From an uncultured Burkholderiales bacterium (lineage in GTDB: Bacteria > Pseudomonadota > Gammaproteobacteria > Burkholderiales > Burkholderiaceae_C), in the NCBI GenBank assembly GCA_903887325.1, contig CAISPG010000016.1:1-37309 (forward strand): DNA of 37,309 bases. The letters run 5' to 3'. The notes under the pieces were generated by a model. That model was not told the origin of the DNA, ran no database searches, and saw nothing but the letters and a program-made list of their open reading frames with translations. The position numbers and the translations under genes are program-made. The stretch's first letter is position 1; every line of letters begins with the position of its first letter. Positions 27,192 to 31,285 of this stretch are shown here, in pieces.

Positions 27192-28100
27192 TCAATGCCA
27201 GCGTTCACGCCACGCATTGACCCAGTGCGGCAAAGCCGAGGCGCAGTTGTCACTGTCAATCTCCGGCAAGCCCAGGACCAGGGCGGCAGCCTGCAAGGCC
27301 AGCAAGGCTTTTTCCGGTGTGGCGGTGACCAGGCTTTGTGCGCCATTCTGTTTGGACAGTTTTTCGCCGTCAGCCGCCAGCACCAGCGGCGTGTGCAGGT
27401 ACACAGGTGCGGGCAGACCCAGGGCTTGTTGCAACAGGATTTGGCGCGCCGTGTTGTCGGCCAGATCTTCGCCGCGCACGACATGCGTGATGCCTTGGGT
27501 CGCGTCATCCAACACCACGGCCAATTGGTAAGCCCACAGGCCATCGCTGCGCTTGAGCACAAAGTCGCCGACGGTGACGGCCACGTTCTGCTGTTGATTG
27601 CCTAAGCGGCGGTCCTGCCAATGCACTTCGCCTTCAGGTACACGTAAACGCACCGACATGCCCGCTTGGAATGACAGATTCAATGCACGGCAAGTGCCCG
27701 GGTAAGGCGTGTCCCGGTGGCGCTCAGGGGCAATGCCTTGCGCCGCCAGGGTTCTGGCGATGTCCGCGCGCGAGCAGCGGCATGCATAGACAGCGTCTAT
27801 GCGTGTCAGCGCGTCCAGCGCCGTCTGGTAGGCGGATGAGCGCTGTGATTGCAGCATTACCGGCTCGTCACTGACCATGCCGCACGCAGCCAATTGCGAC
27901 CGAATGGTTTGTGTTGCAGCTTCATGACAACGAGGTGTATCCACGTCCTCGATACGAAGCAGCCATGCGCCTGAATGGGCACGCGCATCCAGCCAACTGG
28001 CCAGTGCGGTCACCAGCGAACCGGCATGCAAAGGCCCGGTGGGCGAGGGCGCAAACCGGCCCCGGTAGCGGCTGAAGCTGGGTTTCAAATTAAAAATCAA
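27192..28100 (-). CDS. gluQ: Glutamyl-Q tRNA(Asp) synthetase
   Basis: A 302-residue truncated GluRS-like protein without an anticodon-binding domain. The HIGH-equivalent is in [15 protein letters not shown] (about 15-29), the zinc ligands in CRCSR and YPGTCR, and the KMSKS-equivalent is KLSKQ (about 250). GluQ-RS attaches glutamate to queuosine 34 of tRNA-Asp. It starts next to the puc regulatory region, divergently from pucB. Confidence 0.92.
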
Positions 28101-28158
28101 ATGAATTCAACAAGTTGCATCGTGCCTGACTTTAACTCAAGCAATCTGAAAAGCTAGG

Positions 28159-28198
28159 TGTAAATATATGTTGACAGAATGATGTGTCAACATAGAAT
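28159..28198 (+). promoter_or_regulatory. puc promoter with PpsR/CrtJ-type sites
   Basis: A perfect TGT-N12-ACA motif (28159-28176) ends in TTGACA (28171-28176), which serves as the -35 of a sigma-70 promoter with TAGAAT (28193-28198) 16 bases downstream. A second TGT-N12-ACG near-match starts at 28185, and TGTTGACA/TGTCAACA (28169-28176, 28185-28192) form an 8-base inverted repeat. PpsR/CrtJ represses photosynthesis genes by binding paired TGTN12ACA sites; overlap with the -35 predicts aerobic or light repression by occlusion. Confidence 0.75.
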
Positions 28199-28230
28199 CA
28201 CGTGAAAGCCAAATGGTTTTTAAAAATTTG

Positions 28231-28273
28231 TGGCCATGGGGGCCATAAATAACCATCGTGCGGGTTTTGCACG
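28231..28273 (+). other. Two small hairpins in the puc leader
   Basis: TGGCC/GGCCA (28231-28235, 28241-28245) and CGTGC/GCACG (28257-28261, 28269-28273) form two short stem-loops in the predicted leader of about 95 bases, upstream of an AAGGAG ribosome-binding site. Such 5' structures commonly slow decay of antenna mRNAs; function here is inferred. Confidence 0.5.
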
Positions 28274-28303
28274 GACGTGAAAATCTTTCAAGGAGATAAC
28301 ACC

Positions 28304-28450
28304 ATGTCAGACAAAGTAGGGCCAACAGGCCTGACAGAAGCCGAGTCAGAAGAAATTCATCGGCACCTCATCCAAGGGACTCAAATCTTTGGAATGATTG
28401 CAGCGTTGGCACATTTGCTGGCGTACATTTATTCCCCTTGGCTGAAATAA
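28304..28450 (+). CDS. pucB: LH2 light-harvesting beta polypeptide
   Basis: A 48-residue antenna beta subunit. The LTEAESEEIHRHLIQGTQIFG stretch and AHLLAYIYSPWL give the full beta signature: H37 is the axial ligand to the B850-type bacteriochlorophyll, H19 the conserved histidine 18 residues earlier. Lack of the LH1-type W in GT..FG and the following pucC mark it as LH2 rather than LH1. AAGGAG before the ATG is a strong RBS. Followed 12 bases later by pucA. Confidence 0.95.
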   Translation: MSDKVGPTGLTEAESEEIHRHLIQGTQIFGMIAALAHLLAYIYSPWLK

Positions 28451-28462
28451 AAGGAGCACCAC

Positions 28463-28654
28463 ATGATCTACGGAAAAATCTGGACAGTGGTCAAACCTTC
28501 TGTCGGCATTCCCATCTTTCTCGCAGCAGTAGCCATTGGATCGTTTTCGGTTCACCTGGCATTGACCCTGAACACCACATGGGTCAAGAAATTTTTGAAT
28601 GGAAGCGCAGCAACGGCGGCAGTCATACAGACTGTCAAAACGCCCACTGCCTGA
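28463..28654 (+). CDS. pucA: LH2 light-harvesting alpha polypeptide, B800-820-like
   Basis: A 63-residue antenna alpha subunit: [17 protein letters not shown] (4-20), the axial histidine H31, and [10 protein letters not shown] (38-47). Numbered as in Rhodobacter LH2 alpha, positions 44-45 are Phe-Leu instead of the Tyr-Tyr/Tyr-Trp that hydrogen-bonds the acetyl group of B850, the substitution known in B800-820 (LH3) complexes and from site-directed mutants. A long polar C-terminus ([16 protein letters not shown]) follows. AAAGGAG precedes the ATG. Confidence 0.93.
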
Positions 28655-28676
28655 CAAAACAAAAATTTCTTTTTTT

Positions 28677-28711
28677 AATGGGCCGGGATTTACCGATTCC
28701 GGTCCATTTTT
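28677..28711 (+). terminator. Intercistronic hairpin/attenuator between pucA and pucC
   Basis: AATGGGCCGG (28677-28686) pairs with CCGGTCCATT (28699-28708) around a 12-base loop, with one G-T pair, and is followed by a T-run. It should both protect the 3' end of abundant pucBA mRNA and limit readthrough into pucC. The right arm ends only six bases before the pucC ATG, so the hairpin also covers the ribosome-binding region. Confidence 0.88.
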
Positions 28712-28714
28712 AAA

Positions 28715-30079
28715 ATGAACACCTCTGTCGTCAAACCTTCTAAAAATTGGATCAAATTTGGAGCGAAGTTTCTGCCGTTTGCAGATGCCGCATCCGATGT
28801 ATTGCCTTTAAGCAGGCTACTGCGCCTCTCTTTATTTCAAATTTCTGTAGGCATGGCGCTCGCCCTGCTGATCGGCACCCTCAATCGCGTGATGATTGTG
28901 GAATTGCATGTACCGGCAGCGCTGGTAGCGGTGATGGTGTCTTTGCCTTTGCTGTTCGCGCCATTTCGCGCCATCATCGGTTTTCGCTCTGACCACCACC
29001 GCTCGCACCTCGGTTGGCGGCGCGTGCCTTATATCTGGATGGGCACCTTGTTGCAATTCGGTGGATTTGCCATCATGCCTTTTGCGCTGCTGGTGTTGGG
29101 CGGCCTCGGCCAGGCATCAAATGCACCGGCCTGGGTCGGTGATCTCGGTGCGGGTTTGGCTTTTTTGCTGGTCGGCGCTGGTTTGCACACCACGCAGACT
29201 GTGGGGCTGGCACTGGCCACCGATCTTGCCCGGCCTGAGGACAGGCCCAAGGTGGTTGGTTTGATGTACGTCATGTTGCTGCTGGGCATCATCATGAGTT
29301 CCGTGGTATTTGGTTATGTGCTGGAAGATTTTTCACCCGGCACGCTGATTCGCACCGTGCAAGGTGCTGCCGTCATCACTATTTGTTTGAATGTGATTGC
29401 CTTGTGGAAACAAGAGGGCAGAACGCGTGACCGCAGTCCGGGTGTCTACGAAGAAGACCCTGACTTCATGGCATCTTTCAAACTGTTTTGCAATGGCGAA
29501 AATGCCATGCGCAGATTGCTATCTATAGGCTTGGGTACCATGGCTTTTAGCATGGAAGATATTTTGCTTGAGCCTTTCGGCGGCGAAATACTCGGACTGA
29601 GCGTGGCCCAAACCACTTACCTGACAGCGATTCTGGCCATGGGCGGGCTCATAGGTTTTGCCTGGGCGTCGCAAATTTTGAGTCGTGGCGGCGACCCGTT
29701 CAAAATGGCAAGCCGGGGTGCCATGATCGGCATTCCTGCTTTCATCGCCGTGATTTTTTCCGCGCCGCATGCGTCTGCGCCCTTGTTCACCGCGGGCGTG
29801 ATATTCATAGGATTCGGCGCAGGTTTATTCGGTCACGGCACCTTGACCGCCACCATGAACAGCGCACCGCCCGGACAGGCCGGGTTGGCACTCGGCGCCT
29901 GGGGCGCGGTTCAGGCTTCTACCGCGGGTACAGCCATGGCCTTGGGCGGCATCATCCGCGACCTTGCCGCACAATTCACTGATTCAGCAACGGCCTACTC
30001 CAGTGTGTATAGTATTGAAGTGGTGTTGCTGTTGCTGACGGTCCTCATCATGAAACCCTTGGTGAAAACCAAGCCTTGA
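28715..30079 (+). CDS. pucC: LH2 assembly/BCD-family membrane protein PucC
   Basis: A 454-residue major-facilitator-type protein of the bacteriochlorophyll delivery (BCD) family with about twelve membrane segments. The opening LPLSRLLRLSLFQISVGMALALLIGTLNRVMIVEL and the loop FRAIIGFRSDHHRSHLGWRRVPYIW are typical of PucC/LhaA. It is needed for LH2 assembly, probably by shuttling pigment. No Shine-Dalgarno precedes the ATG at 28715; the sequence there is the right arm of a hairpin. Located after pucBA and followed by a small ORF. Confidence 0.95.
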   Translation: MNTSVVKPSKNWIKFGAKFLPFADAASDVLPLSRLLRLSLFQISVGMALALLIGTLNRVMIVELHVPAALVAVMVSLPLLFAPFRAIIGFRSDHHRSHLGWRRVPYIWMGTLLQFGGFAIMPFALLVLGGLGQASNAPAWVGDLGAGLAFLLVGAGLHTTQTVGLALATDLARPEDRPKVVGLMYVMLLLGIIMSSVVFGYVLEDFSPGTLIRTVQGAAVITICLNVIALWKQEGRTRDRSPGVYEEDPDFMASFKLFCNGENAMRRLLSIGLGTMAFSMEDILLEPFGGEILGLSVAQTTYLTAILAMGGLIGFAWASQILSRGGDPFKMASRGAMIGIPAFIAVIFSAPHASAPLFTAGVIFIGFGAGLFGHGTLTATMNSAPPGQAGLALGAWGAVQASTAGTAMALGGIIRDLAAQFTDSATAYSSVYSIEVVLLLLTVLIMKPLVKTKP

Positions 30080-30129
30080 GCGCCTGTGAAGGCAAAAATT
30101 ATCAGATCAACACACAAGGAGAAAGCACC

Positions 30130-30228
30130 GTGAAAGTTCAAACAGTTTTATTCATCGGATGGATTATCGTCATGCTGTTTATGTTGGCCAATTGGTTAAA
30201 TAAGCCTAAAAAAACCATTCGTGACTGA
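30130..30228 (+). CDS. Tiny single-pass membrane protein of the puc operon
   Basis: A 32-codon ORF starting with GTG at 30130, 50 bases after pucC, too short for standard ORF calling. An AAGGAGAAAG ribosome-binding sequence lies at the right distance. The product has a short polar start, a transmembrane helix of about 19 residues (VLFIGWIIVMLFMLANWL) and a basic tail NKPKKTIRD, predicting an N-out/C-in single pass. It resembles in size the small accessory subunits of light-harvesting or reaction-centre complexes, but I do not recognise a family. Real expression is inferred. Confidence 0.72.
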   Translation: MKVQTVLFIGWIIVMLFMLANWLNKPKKTIRD

Positions 30229-30235
30229 TACCCGA

Positions 30236-31285
30236 TCACTTGTTGTCAGCCAGACTCAGCGCCATGCTGAGTCCGCTGATAAAAGCATCTTCGACCCGGT
30301 GACCCAGCAGCCAGTCACCGCACACACCGAGCTTCAATTTCGCATCCCAGTGATGCTTTTTGCCCATGGGCTGTGTGGTTTTGGCGTAACGCCATAAATG
30401 GGTTTGGGTGAATCCCGGTTCGGCACGTATGCCGGTCAATTCAGCGAATGCCTTTAACAACTTCGCTGTCACCCTGTCTTCATCGTCGTCCAAGTGTTCC
30501 TGCGACCATTGCGCACTGGCTTGCACTGTCCAACGCTCAGTGGAGCTGCGTGCGGGTTTGGACGACTCTCTCGAAATCCAGGCGATGCGGTGATGGGTAC
30601 TGCGCGCTGCATTCCATTGCGGGCCCAGGTGACTCAAGCCGGGCTGATTGGCCAGCGGGTAAGCCAGCATCAAGGTCCAGCACGGCGCGACCTCTACTTT
30701 GGACATCATGTCCAGGCCGCTGAACCCGGCCGCGGGTGCGCCTGATTGCCGTAGCAAAAAGTCCGCCTGCACATGCGGTATGGCCAACACAACTGCATCA
30801 AAGCCGCCGTATTCATTGCCGTTGCTGCAGACCAGTTGCCACTTATCGGGTGAACCGGGTTGGCGCAGCAAAAATTGCACTTGTGATTGCATGTGAATCA
30901 AGCCTGCGTCTTGTAGCGGCTGTGCCCAGTGCCGTATCAGGCTGTTCATGCCGGGGGCGGCGACAAAGTGCGGTTCGCGCAAGGGCAGCGGTGCTTCAAT
31001 CACGCGTCCCAGCGGATCCAGCACCCGGACCGCATTGGCGCTCCAGGCGCGGCAAATGGCTTGCGTGCCCGGAACTTCGGTGATGGCTTGCATAAATTGG
31101 GGATCTCGCACGGTGAAGTACTGCACCCCGTGGTCGAAACTGCCGTAGGCGCTTGAACGTGTCGCCATGCGCCCGCCGGCACCGTGGCTTTTTTCAAAAA
31201 CGCTGACCTGGTGGCCGGCCTGCACGAGGGTGCGGGCGGCTGTGATGCCGGCCATGCCGGCGCCTATGACAGCAATTGTTTTCAT
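30236..31285 (-). CDS. FAD-dependent amine-oxidase/renalase-like oxidoreductase
   Basis: A 349-residue flavoprotein with the dinucleotide-binding GAGMAGITAARTL (8-20), the GGRMATR motif (37-43) and a C-terminal LGVCGDWLLGHRVEDAFISGLSMA FAD loop. Resembles the renalase-like NAD(P)/FAD oxidoreductase group of Burkholderiales; substrate unknown. It is convergent with the puc operon (7 bases after the small ORF) and follows the LysR gene by 33 bases on the minus strand. Confidence 0.82.
   Translation of the reverse strand: MKTIAVIGAGMAGITAARTLVQAGHQVSVFEKSHGAGGRMATRSSAYGSFDHGVQYFTVRDPQFMQAITEVPGTQAICRAWSANAVRVLDPLGRVIEAPLPLREPHFVAAPGMNSLIRHWAQPLQDAGLIHMQSQVQFLLRQPGSPDKWQLVCSNGNEYGGFDAVVLAIPHVQADFLLRQSGAPAAGFSGLDMMSKVEVAPCWTLMLAYPLANQPGLSHLGPQWNAARSTHHRIAWISRESSKPARSSTERWTVQASAQWSQEHLDDDEDRVTAKLLKAFAELTGIRAEPGFTQTHLWRYAKTTQPMGKKHHWDAKLKLGVCGDWLLGHRVEDAFISGLSMALSLADNK

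Follow-up and report, generated by a model that had tools for sequence, protein, structure and literature searches.

That residues 44 and 45 of the alpha polypeptide tune the absorption of LH2 is already known, as are the blue-shifted LH2 complexes of Rhodoferax antarcticus and Limnohabitans (PMC5374385, PMC12654162). In B800-850 complexes of the Rhodoblastus/Rhodobacter kind, a comparison of nine LH2 structures lists donors at both alpha-44 and alpha-45 for the C3-acetyl groups of the B850 pigments (PMC9618040). According to the same comparison, the low-light complex of Rhodoblastus 7050 has a single hydrogen bond, from alpha-Tyr41, and absorbs at about 820 nm, while PucD-LH2 of Rps. palustris, whose B850 pigments are without a hydrogen bond, absorbs at 803 nm. 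Moreover, removal of the Tyr44 donor in Rba. sphaeroides is given there as yielding a B800-839 complex and removal of both Tyr donors a B800-826 complex, the bond from Ser27 to the C13 keto group still being present in both, and in both Phs. molischianum and Mch. purpuratum the beta pigment is described as bonded by a beta-Trp. The low-light forms in Rbl. acidophilus and Rps. palustris are treated as alternatives to another LH2 (PMC9618040). Rhodoferax antarcticus is reported to have one puc operon, Phe-Phe at positions 44 and 45 and a band at 819 nm (PMC5374385), and a 2025 review tabulates Limnohabitans planktonicus with LH1 at 865 nm and LH2 at 813 and 799 nm, and Dinoroseobacter and Roseobacter with peaks at 804-806 nm (PMC12654162). 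For Rhodocyclus species the reported maxima are 799-801 nm and either 856-858 or 868-871 nm (PMC8954225). In Gemmatimonas, whose LHh antenna is described as derived from LH1 genes, an outer-ring band at 816 nm shifts to about 860 nm through the conformation of a single residue (PMC12817894), and therefore the band cannot be fully predicted from residue identity alone.

The window analysed here is a stretch of 37,309 nucleotides from an uncultured Burkholderiales bacterium (contig CAISPG010000016.1). We are confident that it holds the sole LH2 operon of a Limnohabitans-type betaproteobacterium, with a ring band that is blue-shifted, its most likely position being about 813 nm (range 803-825 nm). 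The nearest PucC rows are titled Comamonadaceae bacterium or Limnohabitans sp., in agreement with the betaproteobacterial host proposed in the initial annotation of this DNA.

Organization of the puc operon

The gene order in the 5' to 3' direction is pucB, pucA and pucC, all on the plus strand (Table 1). Both small proteins pass the cut-off of PF00556 (LHC) in Pfam, and the locus has the arrangement by which LH2 is recognised, namely a pucB-pucA pair with the axial His followed by pucC, whose product we take to be the LH2 assembly factor. PucB also passes the NCBIfam LH1-beta equivalog NF040862 (67.6 bits, cut-off 61), and automatic annotation may name this LH2 gene LH1.

Table 1. Features of the puc locus, with positions in the window
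Feature	Position	Strand	Evidence
Tandem boxes, promoter/operator of the puc operon	28159..28202	+	Pattern and promoter scans
pucB, LH2 beta, 48 aa	28304..28450	+	Pfam LHC 4.8e-9; top PDB matches Rps. palustris LH2 beta chains, 8.8e-19
pucA, LH2 alpha, 63 aa, ATG start	28463..28654	+	Pfam LHC, PDB register
pucA codons TTT TTG, alpha-Phe44 and alpha-Leu45	28592..28597	+	Sequence, register with solved chains, Table 1 of PMC9618040
pucC, MFS-like, 454 aa	28715..30079	+	Pfam PUCC 1.4e-151, MFS_1 4.4e-19
Single-helix microprotein, 32 aa, (M)KVQTVLFIGWIIVMLFMLANWLNKPKKTIRD, GTG start, AAGGAG upstream	30130..30228	+	Conservation; no known family

Of the tandem boxes, the first (TGT-N12-ACA, 28159-28176) is followed after 8 bp by the second (TGT-N12-ACG, one letter off), so that their starts are 26 bp apart. 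Inside the two boxes lie a sigma-70-like -35 element (TTGACA, 28171-28176) and a -10 element (TAGAAT, 28193-28198). We take TGT-N12-ACA to be the PpsR/CrtJ site, and a PpsR-type repressor would be expected to repress puc under aerobic conditions. The tandem-box pattern occurs once in the window, with 0.01 expected from shuffles, and the promoter-like site (11/12) is one of six in 28050-30300, against 1.9 in shuffles. An equally good site is found on the opposite strand, which is made likely by the palindrome TTGACA-N8-TGTCAA (28171-28190) that the box arms form and that varies in relatives. Among the upstream regions of 24 relatives, 14 have two boxes with the 26-bp start spacing and six have one box, and no exact box was found within 420 bases of pucA in the other four (L127, L130, L148 and L155).

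Residues of PucA and comparison with solved chains

PucA carries Ser27, His31, Trp40, Val41, Phe44 and Leu45. Its register was judged by phmmer against PDB chains: residues 3-52 pair with 3-52 of both 1IJD (B800-820) and 1KZU (B800-850), 2-50 with 2-50 of 7PBW (Rba. sphaeroides), and 3-51 with 3-51 of 7ZE3 (Rps. palustris PucD). The alignments with 7ZE3, 7ZE8, 7PBW, 7ZCU and 7ZDI are gapless; for 1IJD and 1KZU the register is taken from the equal coordinates alone. Because the numbering is equal in the solved alpha chains, His31, Trp40, Phe44 and Leu45 are at equivalent positions, and the earlier gapless placement of Phe44-Leu45 on Rhodobacter LH2 alpha is thus borne out. The top PDB match is PucD-LH2 (7ZE3; 5.6e-16, 61 bits), and 9LT4, a B800-814 entry, is a weaker one. 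With this E-value and with near-identical copies in related genomes, PucA is a real protein beyond chance.

Phe44-Leu45 had been read as the signature of a B800-820 (LH3) antenna, and PucA does lack the Tyr44 and Tyr/Trp45 donors, as does Rhodoblastus acidophilus 7050 LH3 (1IJD), in which the alignment places Tyr41, Phe44 and Leu45. However, the 7050 complex retains one hydrogen bond from Tyr41, its sole donor, which Val41 of the window deletes, and it is one of two spectral forms; the match is right for positions 44-45 and misses position 41. Moreover, the 7050 chain scores 47.8 bits against PucA, below the 61 bits of 7ZE3. A true LH3-type complex, a low-light form with one residual hydrogen bond, would be in line with the 819-nm band reported for the Phe-Phe antenna of R. 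antarcticus (PMC5374385) and with the B800-826 absorption given for the double Tyr-donor mutant of Rba. sphaeroides (PMC9618040); its wavelength lies within the range of our preferred reading, whereas neither a residual bond nor a role in low light belongs to that reading, and on balance we regard it as unlikely. R. antarcticus resembles the window in being a betaproteobacterium with a single puc operon and both donors gone, and differs in its Phe-Phe pair.

By its alignment (Val41, Phe44, Met45), the PucD alpha chain of 7ZE3 resembles PucA more closely. The two share His31, Trp40, Val41, Phe44 and a hydrophobic residue at 45, and in both, positions 41, 44 and 45 are free of donors, which is the PucD-type condition. 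They differ in Met45 of PucD against Leu45 and in Val27 against Ser27, which the window retains as 7PBW does; furthermore, PucD is one among several pucBA pairs, used in low light only, and is accompanied by a gamma ribbon that is reportedly confined to Rhodopseudomonas. Since PucA is donor-free at 41, 44 and 45 while Ser27 is kept, it stands between the Rba. sphaeroides double mutant and PucD. A High-800 or PucD-like complex, whose ring band and B800 would merge near 803-806 nm, still within the predicted range, would fit the top match to the hydrogen-bond-free 803-nm PucD-LH2, the W-V-x-D-F-L reading of six alphas from a single family of the phylum sample (L208-L210 and L212-L214), and the 804-806 nm peaks of Dinoroseobacter and Roseobacter (PMC12654162), names that are not tied to loci here. 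Against such merging are Val27 of PucD versus Ser27 of the window and the two separate peaks, 799 and 813 nm, tabulated for L. planktonicus (PMC12654162), and we consider it rather improbable.

Copy number and genomic setting

The genome searched for LHC proteins is 99.96% complete in 142 contigs. One puf pair (contig 132) and one puc pair are the only ones over the PF00556 cut-off genome-wide; two further LHC matches in Pfam are weak and below the cut-off. A second pucBA with Tyr-Tyr or Tyr-Trp, whose presence the initial annotation had proposed to check, was not found by the Pfam LHC search, and there is accordingly no second, normal LH2 in the search results to which the antenna of the window could be the low-light alternative. 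The absence of such a partner to switch from also argues against the LH3 type. Neither the PucA of the window nor the Phe-Leu alpha of a phylum-sample family had a match in the plasmid collection. In the LH1 alpha of this genome, position His+11 is occupied by Trp, the usual LH1 arrangement. Among 16 genomes examined in the same way, all 15 that were LHC-positive have exactly one puf and one puc pair (G171 has none), and the low-light label is therefore not upheld. Their single puc pairs include Tyr-Tyr (YY), Phe-Phe (FF), Tyr-Leu (YL), Tyr-His (YH), Phe-Tyr (FY) and Phe-Leu (FL) types at positions 44-45; with one puc pair per genome, the 44/45 state is fixed there and is not a matter of light-dependent gene choice.

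No photosynthesis gene was recognised by Pfam among 16 neighbouring proteins, of which 15 could be assigned to a family. One flank of puc has RNA-modification and tRNA-synthetase-like genes, and the other has genes for a flavin oxidoreductase, a LysR regulator and a pirin. In contrast, puc is reported inside the photosynthesis gene cluster in both Limnohabitans and R. antarcticus, and in four genomes (G068, G011, G038 and G021) it is 6-10 kb from puf on the same contig. In PufL/PufM trees the clade of the window groups with Limnohabitans and kin (support 97/96), with which the best PucC tree disagrees. The AU test did not reject this grouping of the 13 genomes for PucC (p 0.243; p 0.274 without the two f18 rows). 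As PucC following the PufL/PufM grouping is compatible with the test, we do not claim a horizontal origin of the puc operon in the window.

Predicted absorption of the complex

The PucB-PucA pair would bind one B800 and two ring bacteriochlorophylls. With Phe-Leu at alpha-44/45 and Val at alpha-41, the C-terminal donors to the ring C3-acetyl groups would be missing, and the usual 850-nm band should move to the blue, provided that other donors are absent in the folded complex; energy would then run downhill from LH2 to the normal LH1. The earlier prediction of a blue-shifted LH2 thus keeps its direction, both C3-acetyl donors being gone, and loses its LH3 and low-light labels. The wavelength is predicted from the residues and from relatives. 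L. planktonicus, a related organism, has its LH2 at 799/813 nm (PMC12654162), and the genus of strains Rim11 and Rim28 is, like the window, mostly Phe-Leu with Val41 and Ser27, from which the predicted value of about 813 nm is derived by a comparison at the level of the genus. This closest measured relative also speaks against the LH3 type. We propose that the complex is aptly labelled a sole LH2 without alpha donors, for which about 813 nm is the best prediction.

As judged from the sequence, further donors may exist, since in PucB of the window a Trp follows the His at a distance of nine residues and there is a beta-Trp precedent in Mch. purpuratum. A normal B800-850 complex, with the hydrogen bonds taken over by such donors, would draw on this Trp, which is at the equivalent end to the beta-Trp bonding the pigment in Phs. 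molischianum and Mch. purpuratum (PMC9618040). Yet the same beta Trp occurs in Rps. palustris PucD-LH2, described as hydrogen-bond-free and absorbing at 803 nm (PMC9618040), and Limnohabitans is reported as blue-shifted (PMC12654162), so that we give this reading very little weight. Similarly, an outer ring of the Gemmatimonas type (LHh) around RC-LH1, in place of separate LH2 rings, would have a similar band (816-819 nm) and is what the 2025 review speculates for Limnohabitans (PMC12654162). It appears highly improbable here, because LHh is described as coming from LH1 genes (PMC12817894) whereas the operon of the window is pucBAC, and because PucA and PucB are closest to nonameric LH2 chains in the PDB search. 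The sole, blue-shifted LH2 therefore remains our preferred reading.

Distribution and turnover of the alpha-44/45 states

In the genus of the window, LHC was found in 56 of 84 genomes; 40 puc regions were taken and 36 read, giving 34 FL and 2 YL, or 35 FL and 3 YL (n=38) when the window (FL) and G005 (YL) are included. In the Limnohabitans Rim11/Rim28 genus, PucA is present in 37 of 90 genomes, and the 36 readable copies comprise 35 FL and one YL, all 36 with Val41 and Ser27. Wider samples were searched with a profile of window-type PucA (A1), a query that favours close kin. The family sample yielded PucA in 23 of 399 genomes, all read (9 YY, 7 FL, 2 YL, 2 FF, 2 YW and 1 FV), and the order sample in 30 of 399 (24 FL, 2 YH, and one each of FM, FY, YY and unreadable). 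Thirteen of 398 genomes in the phylum sample have PucA, two of which (the window and G173) are already counted elsewhere, and the other 11 comprise 6 FL and one each of YL, YV, FF, YW and unreadable. A named census gave 79 FL and 1 YL among the best 80 of 237; as one of its two patterns has [FY] at 44 and only the best 80 were kept, it was rejected as a measure of frequency. Phe-Leu is a common and widespread state in Burkholderiales, and its presence in the window is not something unusual.

A PucC tree with 125 rows, which also include a few other Proteobacteria, requires no fewer than 18 changes of the two-letter state and 15 of FL versus the rest, of which 10 are forced by starred branches; these counts are approximate, the tree being a 'quick' one in which some branches are long. 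YL appears as five separate tips. Four isolated Tyr44-Leu45 copies among Phe-Leu relatives (L253, L162, L259 and L260, in G1250, G005, G021 and G020) are natural single-donor variants, and in one genus (g103, L165-L168) some PucA are Tyr-Tyr and others Phe-Phe, the two kinds being intermingled on the PucC tree. Two loci of family f18 (L190 and L194) have Tyr-His at alpha 44-45, a pair that to our knowledge is on record from no studied LH2. Three further loci (L205-L207) combine FL with Phe41; if they belong to Rhodocyclus, which is a guess, they may be counter-examples to the rule that FL means a blue shift.

Some records call for caution. Five (L087, L092, L123, L143 and L147) are titled Rickettsia typhi, Bordetella parapertussis or Akkermansia muciniphila and carry PucA like that of betaproteobacterial MAGs, a likeness extending to PucC in L087, L123 and L147; the titles of these puc-bearing records look mislabelled. 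In addition, PucA of L057 (G015) is without its membrane span and pucB of L202 (G797) runs into pucA, each either an assembly error or a broken operon.

A conserved microprotein downstream of pucC

Relatives of the microprotein encoded after pucC are single helices of about 26-40 residues in betaproteobacterial puc operons. Among 98 sources surveyed, many of them near kin, 87 have the pucC end and at least 200 bases beyond; 70 of these 87 have a match at a cut-off score that we set ourselves, and 16 of the remaining 17 have a related small ORF as judged by eye, leaving L150 alone with none. The dN/dS ratio of 21 close copies, a set chosen by protein pattern and hence tilted towards conservation, is 0.087 in frame, whereas the two alternative frames give 0.795 and 3.383. 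Searching 53 genomes (36 puc-positive and 17 puc-less) with a profile gave 19 matches with E 2.3e-4 or better at 1.67-1.93 kb past the pucA start on the same strand, the profile including the window copy as a row and some other matches being close kin of rows. None of the 17 puc-less genomes had a match, and two matches elsewhere are chance-like (a second one in G463, 2.4e-4, and one in G349, 0.035). Of the 17 genomes that have puc but no adjacent match, three have a small single-helix ORF after pucC (G088, G448 and G477), six have no such ORF (G411, G253, G142, G724, G1040 and G1203), and for eight the fetched region stops short of the pucC end plus enough sequence beyond. The gene is conserved and linked to puc.

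The microprotein of the window has no match in Pfam or NCBIfam at curated cut-offs or in the PDB, its relatives have only sub-cut-off matches in Pfam/NCBIfam, and no description was found in the titles and abstract openings of the papers listed by a literature search. The gamma polypeptide of Rps. palustris was rejected as a match, because it is described as ribbon-like and extended, with serine-bearing repeats, and as present in Rhodopseudomonas only. We think it probable that the microprotein is a fourth, so far unrecognised puc product, a membrane protein that works with LH2, where it would be either one of the subunits of the ring or a partner of PucC in assembly. It accompanies FL, YL, FF, YY, FV and YH antennae alike, and thus is not a tuning element.

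Significance

What is new here is the scale, in that the donor pair changes repeatedly among Burkholderiales PucA. Phe/Tyr differences at 44 between close relatives would offer one natural hydrogen bond whose effect is measurable in vivo without engineering. The 816-nm antenna of Gemmatimonas phototrophica has been argued to suit water-filtered light (PMC12817894), and by analogy a band at about 813 nm would suit such light in these bacteria. The microprotein, the less expected part of the locus, is a candidate for a missing LH2 component. If true, the microprotein and the repeated 44/45 changes would make the Burkholderiales a natural series for antenna tuning and assembly.
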